From: Cloacibacterium sp.
GTDB taxonomy: Bacteria; Bacteroidota; Bacteroidia; Flavobacteriales; Weeksellaceae
Assembly: GCA_017995195.1 (NCBI GenBank)
Contig: JAGOJI010000001.1
Span: 1-64,000 of the forward strand
Direction of reading: 5' to 3'
Length of the DNA stretch: 64,000 bases
Shown here: positions 36,000 to 51,829 of the stretch, piece after piece
Layout of the letters: each line of letters begins with the position of its first letter
How positions within the stretch are numbered: position 1 is the stretch's first letter
Made by a program: the position numbers and the translations under genes
Notes under the pieces: generated by a model
What the model was told of the DNA's origin: nothing
The model's input: only the letters and a program-made list of their open reading frames with translations
Databases searched by the model: none

Positions 36000-36882
36000 T
36001 CCTGTTTTACTAAAACAAAGTGTAGACGCTCTGGTTGTGAATCCAGATGGGGTTTATGTAGATTGTACTTTTGGTGGAGGCGGTCATTCAAGGGAAATAT
36101 TGAGCAGGCTTTCGGAAAAGGGGAAGTTGTATGCTTTCGACCAGGATTTGGACGCTCTTAAAAATACCATTAGCGATCCAAGATTTGTACTGATTAATCA
36201 GAATTTCAGGTTTTTGGAAAACTCGCTCATGATGTATGGGGTGGGAAAAGTAGACGGAATTTTAGCTGATTTGGGCGTGTCTTCTCATCAGTTCGATGAG
36301 GCAGAAAGAGGTTTTTCTATCCGCACGGATGCCCCTTTGGACATGAGAATGAACGTGATGCAGCATTTAGATGCCAAGAAGGTGGTTAATGAATATGAGG
36401 AAGAGCAGTTGGCAGACATTTTTTACTATTACGGAGAAATAAGAGAGGCAAGAAAGTTGGCAAGGGAGATGGTGCATGCAAGAAAAAACAAGGCAATAGT
36501 TACAACGCAAGATTTGAAAAACGTTTTTGGATACATACCGGCTCATAAGAGCAATAAGTTTTTTGCACAGCTGTTTCAGGCAATAAGGATTGAGGTCAAC
36601 CAAGAATTGGAAGTACTGAAGGAGATGTTGCTCCAGTCTTACCGAATACTTAAACAAGAGGGAAGATTGGTGGTTATTTCATATCACTCATTGGAAGACC
36701 GTTTGGTAAAAAGGTTTCTCAAAAACGGAATGTTTGAAGGAGAACCCGAAAGAGATGTGTTTGGAAACTATGCCAAAGCTTTTGATTTGTTGCAGAGCAA
36801 GGCTATTGTTCCCGATGATGGCGAGATAGAAGAAAATTCAAGAGCAAGAAGTGCAAAAATGAGAGTGGGAACGAAAATATAA
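35989..36882 (+). CDS. rsmH: 16S rRNA (cytosine(1402)-N4)-methyltransferase RsmH
   Basis: RsmH (MraW) methylates N4 of C1402 in the ribosomal P site using SAM. The protein is 297 residues. The SAM-binding motif DCTFGGGGHS is near residue 25, followed by FDQDLDAL and the conserved ADLGVSSHQFDEAERGFS block near 100, all typical. It starts inside the end of mraZ (11-base overlap). After its stop begins a small palindromic element (36883-36980) before ftsL. Confidence 0.96.
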   Translation: MYHNPVLLKQSVDALVVNPDGVYVDCTFGGGGHSREILSRLSEKGKLYAFDQDLDALKNTISDPRFVLINQNFRFLENSLMMYGVGKVDGILADLGVSSHQFDEAERGFSIRTDAPLDMRMNVMQHLDAKKVVNEYEEEQLADIFYYYGEIREARKLAREMVHARKNKAIVTTQDLKNVFGYIPAHKSNKFFAQLFQAIRIEVNQELEVLKEMLLQSYRILKQEGRLVVISYHSLEDRLVKRFLKNGMFEGEPERDVFGNYAKAFDLLQSKAIVPDDGEIEENSRARSAKMRVGTKI

Positions 36883-36980
36883 ATGATGATTGATAAATGA
36901 TGAAAAGAATTAGTAATCAATCAGTTATCAACCATTAATTGTCATTTATAAATAAGAACATAATTATCAATCATCAATTA
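36883..36980. repeat. Solo TGATGATTGATAA inverted-repeat element (rsmH-ftsL spacer)
   Basis: TGATGATTGATAA (36884-36896) is perfectly inverted as TTATCAATCATCA (36964-36976), with further TGATAA-like and TTATCA-like words in between. It begins right after the rsmH stop. The words resemble the arms of the 41003-41445 cassette. Confidence 0.6.
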
Positions 36981-36986
36981 TAATTT

Positions 36987-39348: not shown

Positions 39349-39536
39349 TCCCCTTTCCCCGAAGAGGGAGATGTGGTTGAGTTGAAATAATGATAAAACT
39401 TAGGTTACAATAAATAATGGAGAATTTTTTTCTCCCATTTGAAGAAAACAAATTTTAAAGTGAATTTAGCGTGTATATGACACGATGTTAAACAGTTAGT
39501 ATTAGAGACTTTCTCCCCTTTGGGGGAAAGGGAGAA
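39349..39536. mobile_element. MITE-like element with CCC-rich palindromic ends, copy 1 (ftsI-murE spacer)
   Basis: The left end TCCCCTTTCCCCGAAGAGGG (39349 on) and the right end TTCTCCCCTTTGGGGGAAAG (39511 on) are inverted relatives, and each is nearly palindromic in itself. The 188-bp element begins directly after the ftsI stop and ends one base before the murE ATG. Its left 50 bases resemble those of copy 2 at 42700 (GGGAGAT, GGT, TTGAAAT, ATAAAA in the same order). No ORF inside. Confidence 0.6.
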
Positions 39537-39537
39537 T

Positions 39538-40998
39538 ATGAATTTACAAGAATTATTAAACAGAATCCACGTGTTAGAAATTTTCGGGAATAAAAATCCG
39601 GAAGTTTCAGAAATCGTTTTCGATAGTCGAAAAGCGGTGGGAAACTCGCTGTATGTCGCTATAAAAGGTGTAGTTTCCGATGGCCACGATTATATCAATT
39701 CTGCCATTGAAAAAGGTGCGAAAGTCATTATTTGTGAAAACTTGCCCAATTCAATAAATTCAGAAATTACTTTTGTTAAAGTTAAAGATTCTTCAAAAAC
39801 GTTGGGTCAGCTTGCTTCCAATTTTTATGGAAACCCTTCCGAAAAGCTAAAATTGGTGGGAGTAACAGGAACCAACGGGAAAACATCGGTCTCTACTTTG
39901 TTGTTTGATTTGTTTAAAAATTTAGGCTATCAGTCGGCACTCATTTCTACCGTAGAATACAGAATAGGAGAGGAAATTATTCCCTCAACACATACAACGC
40001 CGGACGTAGTTCGCCTGAACAAGATGCTCGCAAAAGCGGTAGAAGTAGGTTGCGAATACGCTTTTATGGAAGTTTCTTCACACGGGATTCACCAAAACCG
40101 CACCGAGGGTCTTACCTTCAAAATTGCAGGCTTTACCAACATTACCCACGACCATTTAGATTATCACAAAACTTTTGATGAATATCTTAAAACCAAAAAG
40201 AGATTTTTTGATGAATTAAATTCTGAGGCCATTGTCATTACCAATTTTGATGACAAAAACGGAAAAATAATGCTTCAAAATTGCAAAGCCGTAAAGAAAT
40301 CTTACGCTCTGAAAACTATGGCAGATTTCCATGGAAAGCTGTTGGAGGTAGATTTCAACGGAATGTTGCTGAACTTCAATGGAAAAGAATTTTGGACGAC
40401 TCTAACGGGAAAATTCAATGTATATAACTTGCTTTTGGCATTTGCAATTGCAGTAGAATTAGGAATGAATGAAGATGAGGTTTTACAGGCGATTTCTCAA
40501 CTGAAACGCGTAAACGGCAGGTTTGAAACCTTTAAATCCGATGGCGGAATTTTCTTCGTGGTAGACTATGCCCATACGCCTGATGCTTTGGAGAATGTGC
40601 TGGATTCCATCAACGAAATCCGCACCAAAAATGAAAGACTCATTACCGTTTTCGGTTGTGGTGGTGACAGAGATAAAGAAAAACGCCCGGAAATGGGAAA
40701 AATCGCGACAAGGAAATCTACTTTAGCAATCATCACGTCGGACAATCCACGCACGGAAAATCCGCAGGAAATTATTAAAGATATTGAAGCAGGAGTAGAA
40801 CCGCAAAACTTCAGCAAATACACTTCGATTCCCGATAGAAAGGAAGCGATAAAAATGGCAATCAAATTCGCCGAACCAAAAGATATAGTGCTTGTTGCCG
40901 GAAAAGGCCACGAAAATTACCAAGAAATAAATGGCGAAAAACTCCATTTTGATGATAAAGAAACGATTGTGGAATTGGCAAGAATGATGAGTAAATGA
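39538..40998 (+). CDS. murE: UDP-MurNAc-tripeptide synthetase MurE (meso-DAP type)
   Basis: MurE adds the third amino acid to UDP-MurNAc-L-Ala-D-Glu. The 486-residue protein has the ATP loop GVTGTNGKTS near residue 108 and the conserved STHTTPDVV and HDHLDYH blocks. ITSDNPRTE carries the DNPR motif that marks meso-diaminopimelate specificity, as expected for a Gram-negative wall. I start at the ATG at 39538; a TTG six codons earlier would lie inside the repeat element. The element's end supplies GGGAG a few bases before this ATG. Confidence 0.95.
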   Translation: MNLQELLNRIHVLEIFGNKNPEVSEIVFDSRKAVGNSLYVAIKGVVSDGHDYINSAIEKGAKVIICENLPNSINSEITFVKVKDSSKTLGQLASNFYGNPSEKLKLVGVTGTNGKTSVSTLLFDLFKNLGYQSALISTVEYRIGEEIIPSTHTTPDVVRLNKMLAKAVEVGCEYAFMEVSSHGIHQNRTEGLTFKIAGFTNITHDHLDYHKTFDEYLKTKKRFFDELNSEAIVITNFDDKNGKIMLQNCKAVKKSYALKTMADFHGKLLEVDFNGMLLNFNGKEFWTTLTGKFNVYNLLLAFAIAVELGMNEDEVLQAISQLKRVNGRFETFKSDGGIFFVVDYAHTPDALENVLDSINEIRTKNERLITVFGCGGDRDKEKRPEMGKIATRKSTLAIITSDNPRTENPQEIIKDIEAGVEPQNFSKYTSIPDRKEAIKMAIKFAEPKDIVLVAGKGHENYQEINGEKLHFDDKETIVELARMMSK

Positions 40999-41002
40999 TG
41001 GT

Positions 41003-41445
41003 TGATAAATGATACTTGATAGTTGATGAATGATTTAAACAAATGATAGCTATATGGATTACAATACAATTTTTGCTCAAAGAACAAAAAAGTTATCAAT
41101 AAAAATCATTAATGAACTTTCGGAATTACCTTACTCTGATAAAGTTTCAGTTTTAAGGAAACAAATATTTCGTTCTTCAAGTTCATCGGCATCAAATTAT
41201 AGAGCAATGTGTAGAGCACGTTCAAATAAAGAAAAATATGCCAAAATTTGTATTGTTGTAGAAGAAGCAGATGAAACTCTTTTTTGGCTCGAAGTAATAA
41301 AAGAAGTAAATATTATGAAAAATGAAGAACTTTTGAAAGAAATGACAATAGAAGCAGAAGAAATAGTAAAAGTGACAGCAACTTATAAGAGAAAATTAGG
41401 AGAAGGATTATAATTCAATCATCAACTATCAAGTATCATTTATCA
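41003..41445. mobile_element. S23/IVS-type cassette with perfect 27-bp inverted arms
   Basis: Left arm 41003-41029 and right arm 41419-41445 are perfect 27-base inverted repeats built from TGATAAATGATACTTGATAG followed by TTGATGA. Between them is one complete gene, the four-helix-bundle protein at 41054-41413. The cassette starts 4 bases after the murE stop and ends 25 bases before mraY, so it splits two genes that are adjacent in most relatives. Further TTATCA-type words follow the right arm up to mraY. Confidence 0.7.
41054..41413 (+). CDS. Four-helix-bundle protein, S23 rRNA-intervening-sequence family
   Basis: A 119-residue, almost wholly helical protein. The pattern begins YNTIFAQRTKKLSIKIINEL, then LPYSDKVSVLRKQIFRSSSSSASNYRAMCRA (an arginine- and serine-rich second helix with S/A-SNYRA), and WLEVIKEVNIM on the third, which are hallmarks of the S23/TIGR02436 family. 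These proteins are encoded in intervening sequences of 23S rRNA and as orphan genes, and share their fold with Avd of diversity-generating retroelements; they form pentameric barrels that probably bind nucleic acid. Here it is inside an inverted-repeat cassette in the dcw cluster. Biological role unknown. Confidence 0.82.
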   Translation: MDYNTIFAQRTKKLSIKIINELSELPYSDKVSVLRKQIFRSSSSSASNYRAMCRARSNKEKYAKICIVVEEADETLFWLEVIKEVNIMKNEELLKEMTIEAEEIVKVTATYKRKLGEGL

Positions 41446-41470
41446 CTTATCACTTATCAATCATTAAAAC

Positions 41471-42697
41471 ATGCTATACTACCTATACGAATACCTCACT
41501 TCTCAAGGAATCCATATTCCTGGTTTGAATTTACTAAAATACATTTCATTTCGGGCAGGAATTTCTATTCTTGTATCCTTATGGATTGCTTTGATTTATG
41601 GTAAAAAAATCATTCGTTTTTTACGAAAAAAGCAGATGGGAGAACTGGTAAGAGATTTAGGTTTAGAGGGACAGAAGCAAAAGGAAGGAACACCTACCAT
41701 GGGAGGGCTCATCATTATTCTGGCAACTTTGGTTCCTGTAATTCTGTTTACCAAATTTAATATTTACATTTTATTGCTTTTAATTACCATGCTTTGGATG
41801 GGAGCGATTGGCTTTATAGATGATTATCTCAAAAAAATTAAAAAAAATAAAGACGGGTTGTCCGGAAAATTCAAAATTTTAGGGCAGGTAGGAATTGGGT
41901 TGATTGTAGGAATTACCATGTATTTTCATCCTGATGTAACCATCAAAAGAAAATACGTAGAGCCTAACGCTATCAACAGAAACCATGTTTCCCAAAACTT
42001 TGCTCCCGAAGAAAAATCTACGGTTTCTACTATGCTTTTTCTTAAAAACAACGAGTTCGATTACAGTAAGATGTTGTTTTGGATGGAGAGCGATAAAGCA
42101 CAGGAAATGGCTTGGGTCATCTTTATTCCTATGGTCATCTTTATTGTAACCGCCGTTTCCAACGGAGCCAATATTACCGATGGGATAGATGGACTCGCCG
42201 CCGGCACCAGTGTCATTATACTCCTTACATTGGCTTTGTTTGCCTATCTGTCGGGCAATATCATCTTTGCAGATTACCTGAACATCATGTTCTTGCCCAA
42301 TATGGGCGAGACTACCATTTTCGCTTTGGCGTTGGTGGGAGCTGTTATCGGCTTTTTTTGGTACAATACCTATCCGGCACAAGTATTTATGGGCGATACA
42401 GGAAGTTTGATGTTAGGAGGCGTAATTGCAGTTTTGGCTATTATTTTAAGGAAAGAATTGCTCATTCCGGTATTGTGCGGCATTTTTTTAGTAGAAAATC
42501 TGTCGGTTATGTTGCAAGTGGCTTATTTTAAATATACCAAGAAGAAATACGGAGAGGGAAGAAGAATATTCAAAATGTCGCCTCTGCATCATCATTATCA
42601 AAAAAGTGGTTATCACGAGAGTAAAATCGTAATGCGATTTTTAATTATAGGCGTAATGTTGGCGGTAATTTGTTTAATTACACTGAAAGTTAGGTAA
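41471..42697 (+). CDS. mraY: Phospho-N-acetylmuramoyl-pentapeptide transferase MraY
   Basis: MraY links phospho-MurNAc-pentapeptide to undecaprenyl phosphate to make lipid I at the inner membrane. The 408-residue protein has about ten helices. Signatures: TMGGLIIIL near residue 76, the Mg-binding IDDYLK near 116, the [12 protein letters not shown] block near 236 and HHHYQKSGY near 375. It is longer than E. coli MraY (360) because of an extra loop around residues 160-205 with [10 protein letters not shown], usual in this phylum. It follows the S23 cassette, which may affect its transcription. Confidence 0.95.
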
Positions 42698-51753: not shown

Positions 51754-51765
51754 TAAAAAAATAAA

Positions 51766-51810
51766 TGATAAGTGATGAATGATAAACGATACAATCAATC
51801 ATCAATTATA
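51766..51810. repeat. Solo TGATAAGTGATGA-type hairpin (ftsA-ftsZ spacer)
   Basis: TGATAAGTGATGAATGAT (51766-51783) and ATCAATCATCAATTATA (51794-51810) are imperfect inverted repeats made from the same words (TGATAA, TGATGA, ATTGAT) as the elements at 36883 and 41003. Confidence 0.5.
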
Positions 51811-51829
51811 GATTAATAAAAAAATATTT

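Follow-up and report, generated by a model that had tools for sequence, protein, structure and literature searches.

The window, as we call the whole 64,000-nt stretch of Cloacibacterium sp. DNA analyzed here, carries part of the dcw cluster, in which the gap between murE and mraY is filled by a cassette of one small gene and two inverted arms. The features of this interval are as follows, in window coordinates.

39520–40998, + strand: murE, the upstream host gene (ORF; served as the tblastn query on relatives)
40983–41037, + strand: upstream arm of TTGATAA-type heptamers, G-containing strand, overlapping the end of murE (perfect core 41003–41029)
40999–41470, + strand: whole murE–mraY interval, made up of the arms and the S23 ORF (from the inverted repeats and from the empty gaps of relatives)
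41054–41413, + strand: S23-family ORF, 119 aa, predicted four-helix bundle (from the ORF list, profiles, AlphaFold2 model and Foldseek)
41411–41465, + strand: downstream arm of TTATCAA-type heptamers (perfect core 41419–41445)
41471–42697, + strand: mraY, the downstream host gene

A preliminary description of this locus reported perfect 27-base inverted repeats enclosing exactly one small gene between murE and mraY, and each of these points is borne out. Positions 41003–41029 (tgataaatgatacttgatagttgatga) and 41419–41445 are exact reverse complements over 27 nt, and the S23 gene is the sole ORF in the 472-nt gap. A repeat finder extends the arms to 55 nt each (84% complementary), so the perfect 27 nt form the core of a longer, imperfect arm pair, whose left end reaches into the final murE codons. 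Both arms are composed of 7-bp units, TTGATAA upstream and TTATCAA downstream; this repeat structure, absent from the preliminary description, proved key to interpretation. RNA fold prediction pairs the arms around the ORF (MFE −107.9 kcal/mol, z = −5.0), in agreement with the earlier proposal of a strong hairpin if the arms are transcribed. Pfam and NCBIfam matches within the cassette are to S23 only, with no transposase in the unit and no Y1 (HUH) transposase in particular. The neighbors are dcw genes, and a local repeat search reveals no template/variable repeats, nor is there a reverse transcriptase, beside the cassette. A search of the same genome returns no second copy of this S23 gene or of the entire cassette, and seven further S23 matches elsewhere, some broken or partial. 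Two of the genome's S23 genes are decayed (G000:C109:18930–19154, L014, and G000:C97:3430–3519, L016); one has stops and the other is a fragment, and heptamer-like flanks persist around L014.

By profile comparison, the 119-aa ORF is a clear member of the S23 / 23S_rRNA_IVP family, as had been described (TIGR02436, 71.7 bits with a cut-off of 24; PF05635, 41.3 bits with a cut-off of 33.8). An AlphaFold2 monomer model (pLDDT 94.6) contains four helices, and Foldseek aligns it to 2rld (TM 0.81), Xcc0516/2gsc (TM 0.77), Avd (4dwl, TM 0.74) and Avd of the diversity-generating retroelement ribonucleoprotein (TM 0.73). The ORF is thereby predicted to adopt the four-helix-bundle fold of 2rld and 2gsc, and the fold common to S23 and Avd, which the preliminary description had invoked, is recovered in the model. 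Crystal structures of S23 ("four helix bundle") proteins date back to 2006, and we know of no function assigned to them. Copies of the cassette S23 type are under purifying selection (dN/dS about 0.1), and at least one S23 gene is present in 153 of 198 Bacteroidota genomes, with up to 16 copies. The Xanthomonas S23 homologue is a homopentamer (PMC4990558), and Avd and S23 are related in Pfam (PMC10053308).

Elsewhere in the genome, S23 genes are flanked by different 7-bp words (TTGGTAT, TTAGAAG and others), which are also inverted around the gene, and we therefore assembled a wider set of S23 loci, comprising 93 usable loci from the source genome and its family. Arms were scored by comparing each upstream flank with the reverse complement of the downstream flank, with flanks of mismatched loci as the null. 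The median arm score is 16.5, versus 8.0 for mismatched loci, and 73% of the family loci lie above the 95th percentile of mismatched pairs; direct-orientation similarity of the flanks is at background (median 8.5). The arms of the murE–mraY cassette are far above chance, with the top score among the 93 loci (31.5, versus a 99.9th percentile of 22 for mismatched loci and a 99th percentile of 14.7 for 280 control genes). Self-identity of the flanks peaks at lag 7 (0.372), with smaller peaks at 14 and 21, whereas other lags give about 0.28–0.32 and control flanks give 0.32 at lag 7, where the peak is absent. The median arm is 29 nt long; the upstream arm ends about 20 nt 5′ of the S23 start codon, and the downstream arm begins about 10 nt 3′ of the stop. 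The upstream arm contains more G than C at 58 loci and less at 3. Both neighbors run in the direction of S23 at 85 of 92 family loci (92%), compared with 157 of 280 control triples (p = 1e-11), which places the S23 unit in sense orientation and apparently inside operons. About a quarter of S23 loci lack clear arms, and pair-by-pair co-evolution of the arms among same-site relatives is weak (p = 0.004 at one site and 0.32 at another). Rfam finds no rRNA at 20 other S23 loci.

Bacterial heptamer repeats are widespread and were formerly ascribed to polymerase slippage, according to work cited in PMC4679880, and the arrangement could in principle be a coincidence between slippage-prone intergenic repeats and a gene family whose members tolerate such locations. 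Small control genes argue against this: among 84 genes of 80–170 aa, taken from 20 arbitrarily chosen 20-kb segments of relatives, 2.4% have a score of at least 12.5, versus 74% of S23 genes (p = 1e-25), and none reaches 16, versus 55% of S23 genes. Across all 280 control genes, two have strong arms. Moreover, the heptamer word is the same within an S23 locus and different between loci, and its polarity is fixed. Given the control-gene contrast, the within-locus match and the polarity, we set coincidence aside as highly improbable. Of the two control genes with strong arms, the one inspected, a hydroxyacid-dehydrogenase-like gene (L324, 11810–13020), has on either side an inverted repeat of another Bacteroidota kind, the AATCTGCGAG type.

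The same architecture is found well outside this family. A mixed S23 alignment, run against one genome per species for 84,980 species, returned 80 loci; this set consists of genes with the motif S[IV]P[SAT]N[IL]AEG only and includes Cyanobacteria, Acidobacteria, several Proteobacteria, Planctomycetes, Clostridia, Bacteroidota, Chloroflexi, Patescibacteria, Omnitrophica, an archaeon and others. Seventy-nine loci from more than 15 phyla have usable flanks; 61 of these loci score above the 95th percentile of mismatched pairs and 40 above the 99th. The arm unit is nearly always 7 nt, and the G-rich polarity of the upstream arm holds at a ratio of 54:4. Plasmid S23 genes of Nostoc, Geminocystis and Gemmatirosa also have clear heptamer arms, and those of Nostoc edaphicum consist of repeated TAGGGAG opposite CTCCCTA. 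Units of other lengths occur at three loci (L252, L300 and L309), with 8 nt in Mesorhizobium and Brucella and 9 nt in Muribaculaceae. Some S23 genes, among them those in Nostoc (L235) and Calothrix (L237), are antisense to their neighbors; the former (1483–1851 on the Nostoc edaphicum plasmid pNe_5) has GTAGGGA arms and lies between two ribonucleotide reductase subunit genes.

The heptamer word follows the S23 subfamily, also at unrelated loci. GTTAGAA accompanies the subfamily MKxHRLxxLxIW, AAGAGCC/CCAAGAA the subfamily MHNFEKLxFWQKS, AAAGAAT the subfamily MKHNFKNLNIWK, AGTTATA the subfamily of SFEFAVxIVNFYK type and TTGATAA the S23 type of the murE–mraY cassette. For pairs without homologous neighbors, mean word similarity is about 0.46–0.50 below 55% protein identity, 0.67 at 55–70% and 0.88 above 70%; none of 5000 label shuffles (uncorrected for relatedness) matches the close-pair means. 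Word and protein distances correlate modestly in a plain Mantel test (r = 0.11, p = 0.02), the signal sitting in pairs above about 55% identity. This link suggests that an S23 protein recognizes its own word. At a third locus (L168, L172 and L173), the cassette S23 type is found with a shifted word, GTAATAA/GTAATGA, which could show word and protein changing together.

TTGATAA arrays also occur without a gene. They are scattered through the source genome, and two of them lie in the dcw cluster of the window:

36880–36984, + strand: paired TTGATAA heptamer arms without an ORF, between rsmH and ftsL
51760–51815, + strand: paired TTGATAA heptamer arms without an ORF, immediately 5′ of ftsZ, probably in the ftsA–ftsZ gap

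Of the remaining TTGATAA arrays inspected in the genome, most are of the C-strand and lie from a few to about 40 nt 5′ of start codons. Within one large genus, genomes with the cassette S23 type have a median of 35 TTGATAA arrays, versus 19 in genomes without it (p = 4e-5), and most genera without this type are almost free of such arrays, a few genomes from other genera being exceptions. The position of downstream arms and single arrays directly 5′ of start codons would fit translational regulation, in which leader arrays serve as S23 sites that tune both the S23 gene and downstream genes, the arms being inverted since the S23 gene and the next gene would each need a site. A post-transcriptional binder was likewise proposed by MacGregor for TAACTGA arrays before starts (PMC4679880). 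However, the arms are inverted, with direct-orientation similarity at background, and their presence at an essential operon varies wildly among close relatives, unlike conserved regulation. We consider this explanation improbable, if less so than coincidence.

To follow the cassette through time, murE–mraY junctions of relatives were located by murE tblastn, and 60 of them were placed on an mraY tree. Relatives of the cassette S23 protein (E ≤ 1e-20) are present in 94 of 299 family genomes. They occupy the murE–mraY junction in six genera, an oligopeptidase-like junction (locus B), a third junction (locus C, where the word is now GTAATAA) and a site beside a sensor-kinase/regulator pair, and those at other loci mostly keep the same arm word. 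The 60 junctions comprise 16 with the cassette (one half-deleted), 5 with a different S23 gene and a TTTAAAGA-type word, 7 with an arms-only TTGATAA hairpin, 6 with another insert and 26 scored as empty, of which three (L225, L226 and L229) resemble arms-only hairpins of the TTTAAAGA-type word. In many relatives, the empty gap measures 1–90 nt. At least 21 state changes are required on the mraY tree; the same gene and arms in all relatives, which the preliminary description had named as evidence against a mobile unit, are thus not what the junctions reveal. Cassette loss is common, often down to the arms only, and homologous recombination between strains may be the source of some junction changes. 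At one junction (L215), flanks that are 95–96% identical enclose an unrelated small gene where the cassette would be. This gene, for a membrane-anchored protein of about 110 aa ('...ILDCExTYxxxxPKxGYLxxSESNAKV...'), is a recurrent occupant of the gap (L031, L049 and L215), and at L049 TTATCAA heptamers follow it, with none on its other side.

These junctions bear on the stronger part of the preliminary description, which took the locus for a complete mobile unit. The gene and arms do form a unit, as seen from the empty, arms-only and differently filled junctions and from relatives at three or more other loci. The further reading, that a self-contained transposon bounded by 27-bp terminal repeats inserted here recently, draws on the perfect arms and on the lack of the cassette in many relatives, but other observations speak against it. 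The site is filled in six genera, with proteins that are 65–81% identical and have their own arms, and the cassette is old and recurrent. The S23 tree groups copies by site (4 changes versus a shuffled mean of 15.8), from which it follows that movement between sites is rare. Aligning the junctions yields the anticipated empty sites and no target duplication: in the close pair G008 (empty, 6-nt gap) and G076 (full), the arms reach the murE stop codon at one end and the mraY start codon at the other, and no target duplication is visible between flanks that are only about 80–90% identical. With no transposase in the unit either, recent transposition is set aside as very unlikely, on a par with coincidence.

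A REP/RAYT-like DNA mobile system is a more serious alternative, in which S23 oligomers bind the heptamer arms as terminal repeats in DNA while host enzymes mobilize the cassette and give rise to arms-only forms and single arrays. It would accommodate the same subfamily and word at several loci, the word–subfamily link at unrelated loci, the greater number of TTGATAA arrays alongside this S23 type and the antisense copies, for which a role in operon mRNA is less obvious. Against it, S23 lacks a catalytic domain, target duplication is missing at the G008/G076 junction, the grouping of copies by site makes movement rare, and the strong sense-in-operon bias points to constraint at the RNA level. 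We regard such a system as unlikely overall, though the strongest of the competing explanations.

We favor, at roughly 55%, a model in which the cassette is an intercistronic, mRNA-borne analogue of the 23S rRNA intervening sequence (IVS) and a member of a widespread bacterial element. In this model, the S23 ORF is in sense with its two co-directional neighbors and occupies the loop closed by inverted arrays of a 7-nt word. The operon transcript would pair the arms into a stem of about 25–55 bp, sealing off the ORF from murE and mraY. RNase III would be likely to cut this stem, which may otherwise simply be tolerated; the flanking cistrons would remain translatable, and this would explain tolerance within an essential operon. 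An S23 protein probably binds the word of its own arms, in RNA or DNA form. Arms and gene come and go jointly, the ORF is frequently lost while the arms stay behind as a hairpin, and single arrays of the word are also found before genes. The data directly support the arms, their 7-nt period and polarity, the sense position, the fold, purifying selection, the turnover and the link between word and subfamily; stem transcription, RNase III cutting, S23–word binding and the route of movement are the steps we infer. The analogy rests on the sense position, the predicted stem and the forms with and without an ORF, as 23S rRNA IVSs lacking an ORF exist as well. An RNA stem alone does not explain the 7-nt unit size and the single arrays. 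A wider proposal stands in our estimate a little short of even odds: S23 proteins would be sequence-specific 7-nt-word binders, S23 with inverted heptamer arms would make up a single family of minimal intercistronic elements found throughout bacteria, and many unexplained heptamer repeats would derive from it as arms-only or single-array forms.

The shared loci tie together the S23 family and heptamer repeats, both of which lack an explanation. S23 subfamilies come with their own words, making protein–word binding directly testable, and the cassette shows how such a unit can live within an essential operon. Our literature search, in which subscription journals were thinly covered, found no publication joining S23 with heptamer repeats, and the two heptamer papers considered here (PMC4679880 and PMC4692102) do not mention S23 genes. 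The first suggests that a repeat-binding protein of TAACTGA arrays may be the mobile part (PMC4679880). The second describes GGGAATC / GGGGATT arrays in Xanthomonas and Nostoc, with at least 70 convergent pairs and the same strand polarity as the S23 arms (PMC4692102). Like the arms, published heptamer repeats are tandem 7-nt units in intergenic positions, with inverted pairs in Xanthomonas and with the C-strand before starts and the G-strand after stops; the published words are genome-wide, whereas S23 arm words are specific to locus and subfamily.

Among other known systems, an insertion sequence or MITE shares with the cassette its terminal inverted repeats, which here are heptamer arrays, while the cassette has neither a target-site duplication nor a transposase. 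REP/RAYT elements similarly bracket a protein gene with short extragenic repeats that are also found alone; unlike them, the cassette has no Y1 transposase, its repeats are heptamer arrays and no target duplication is seen. Avd of diversity-generating retroelements has the same predicted fold, and the cassette is without the reverse transcriptase and template/variable repeats of those systems. The closest parallel is the 23S rRNA IVS of Coxiella and Leptospira, in which complementary ends enclose an S23 ORF and form a stem that RNase III cuts (PMC4990558). Like this IVS, the cassette holds an S23 ORF in the loop of complementary arms, has forms with and without the ORF, is sporadically present and re-uses a site. 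Unlike it, the cassette is located between protein-coding genes rather than in a 23S rRNA helix, its arms are 7-nt arrays of fixed polarity, and cutting by RNase III is here a presumed step. The combination of S23 with heptamer arms is real, general and not an isolated transposon. It has the look of an rRNA IVS relocated to the space between protein genes and built on a heptamer word, and the rRNA IVS itself may be one special form of an intercistronic element with a much wider range.
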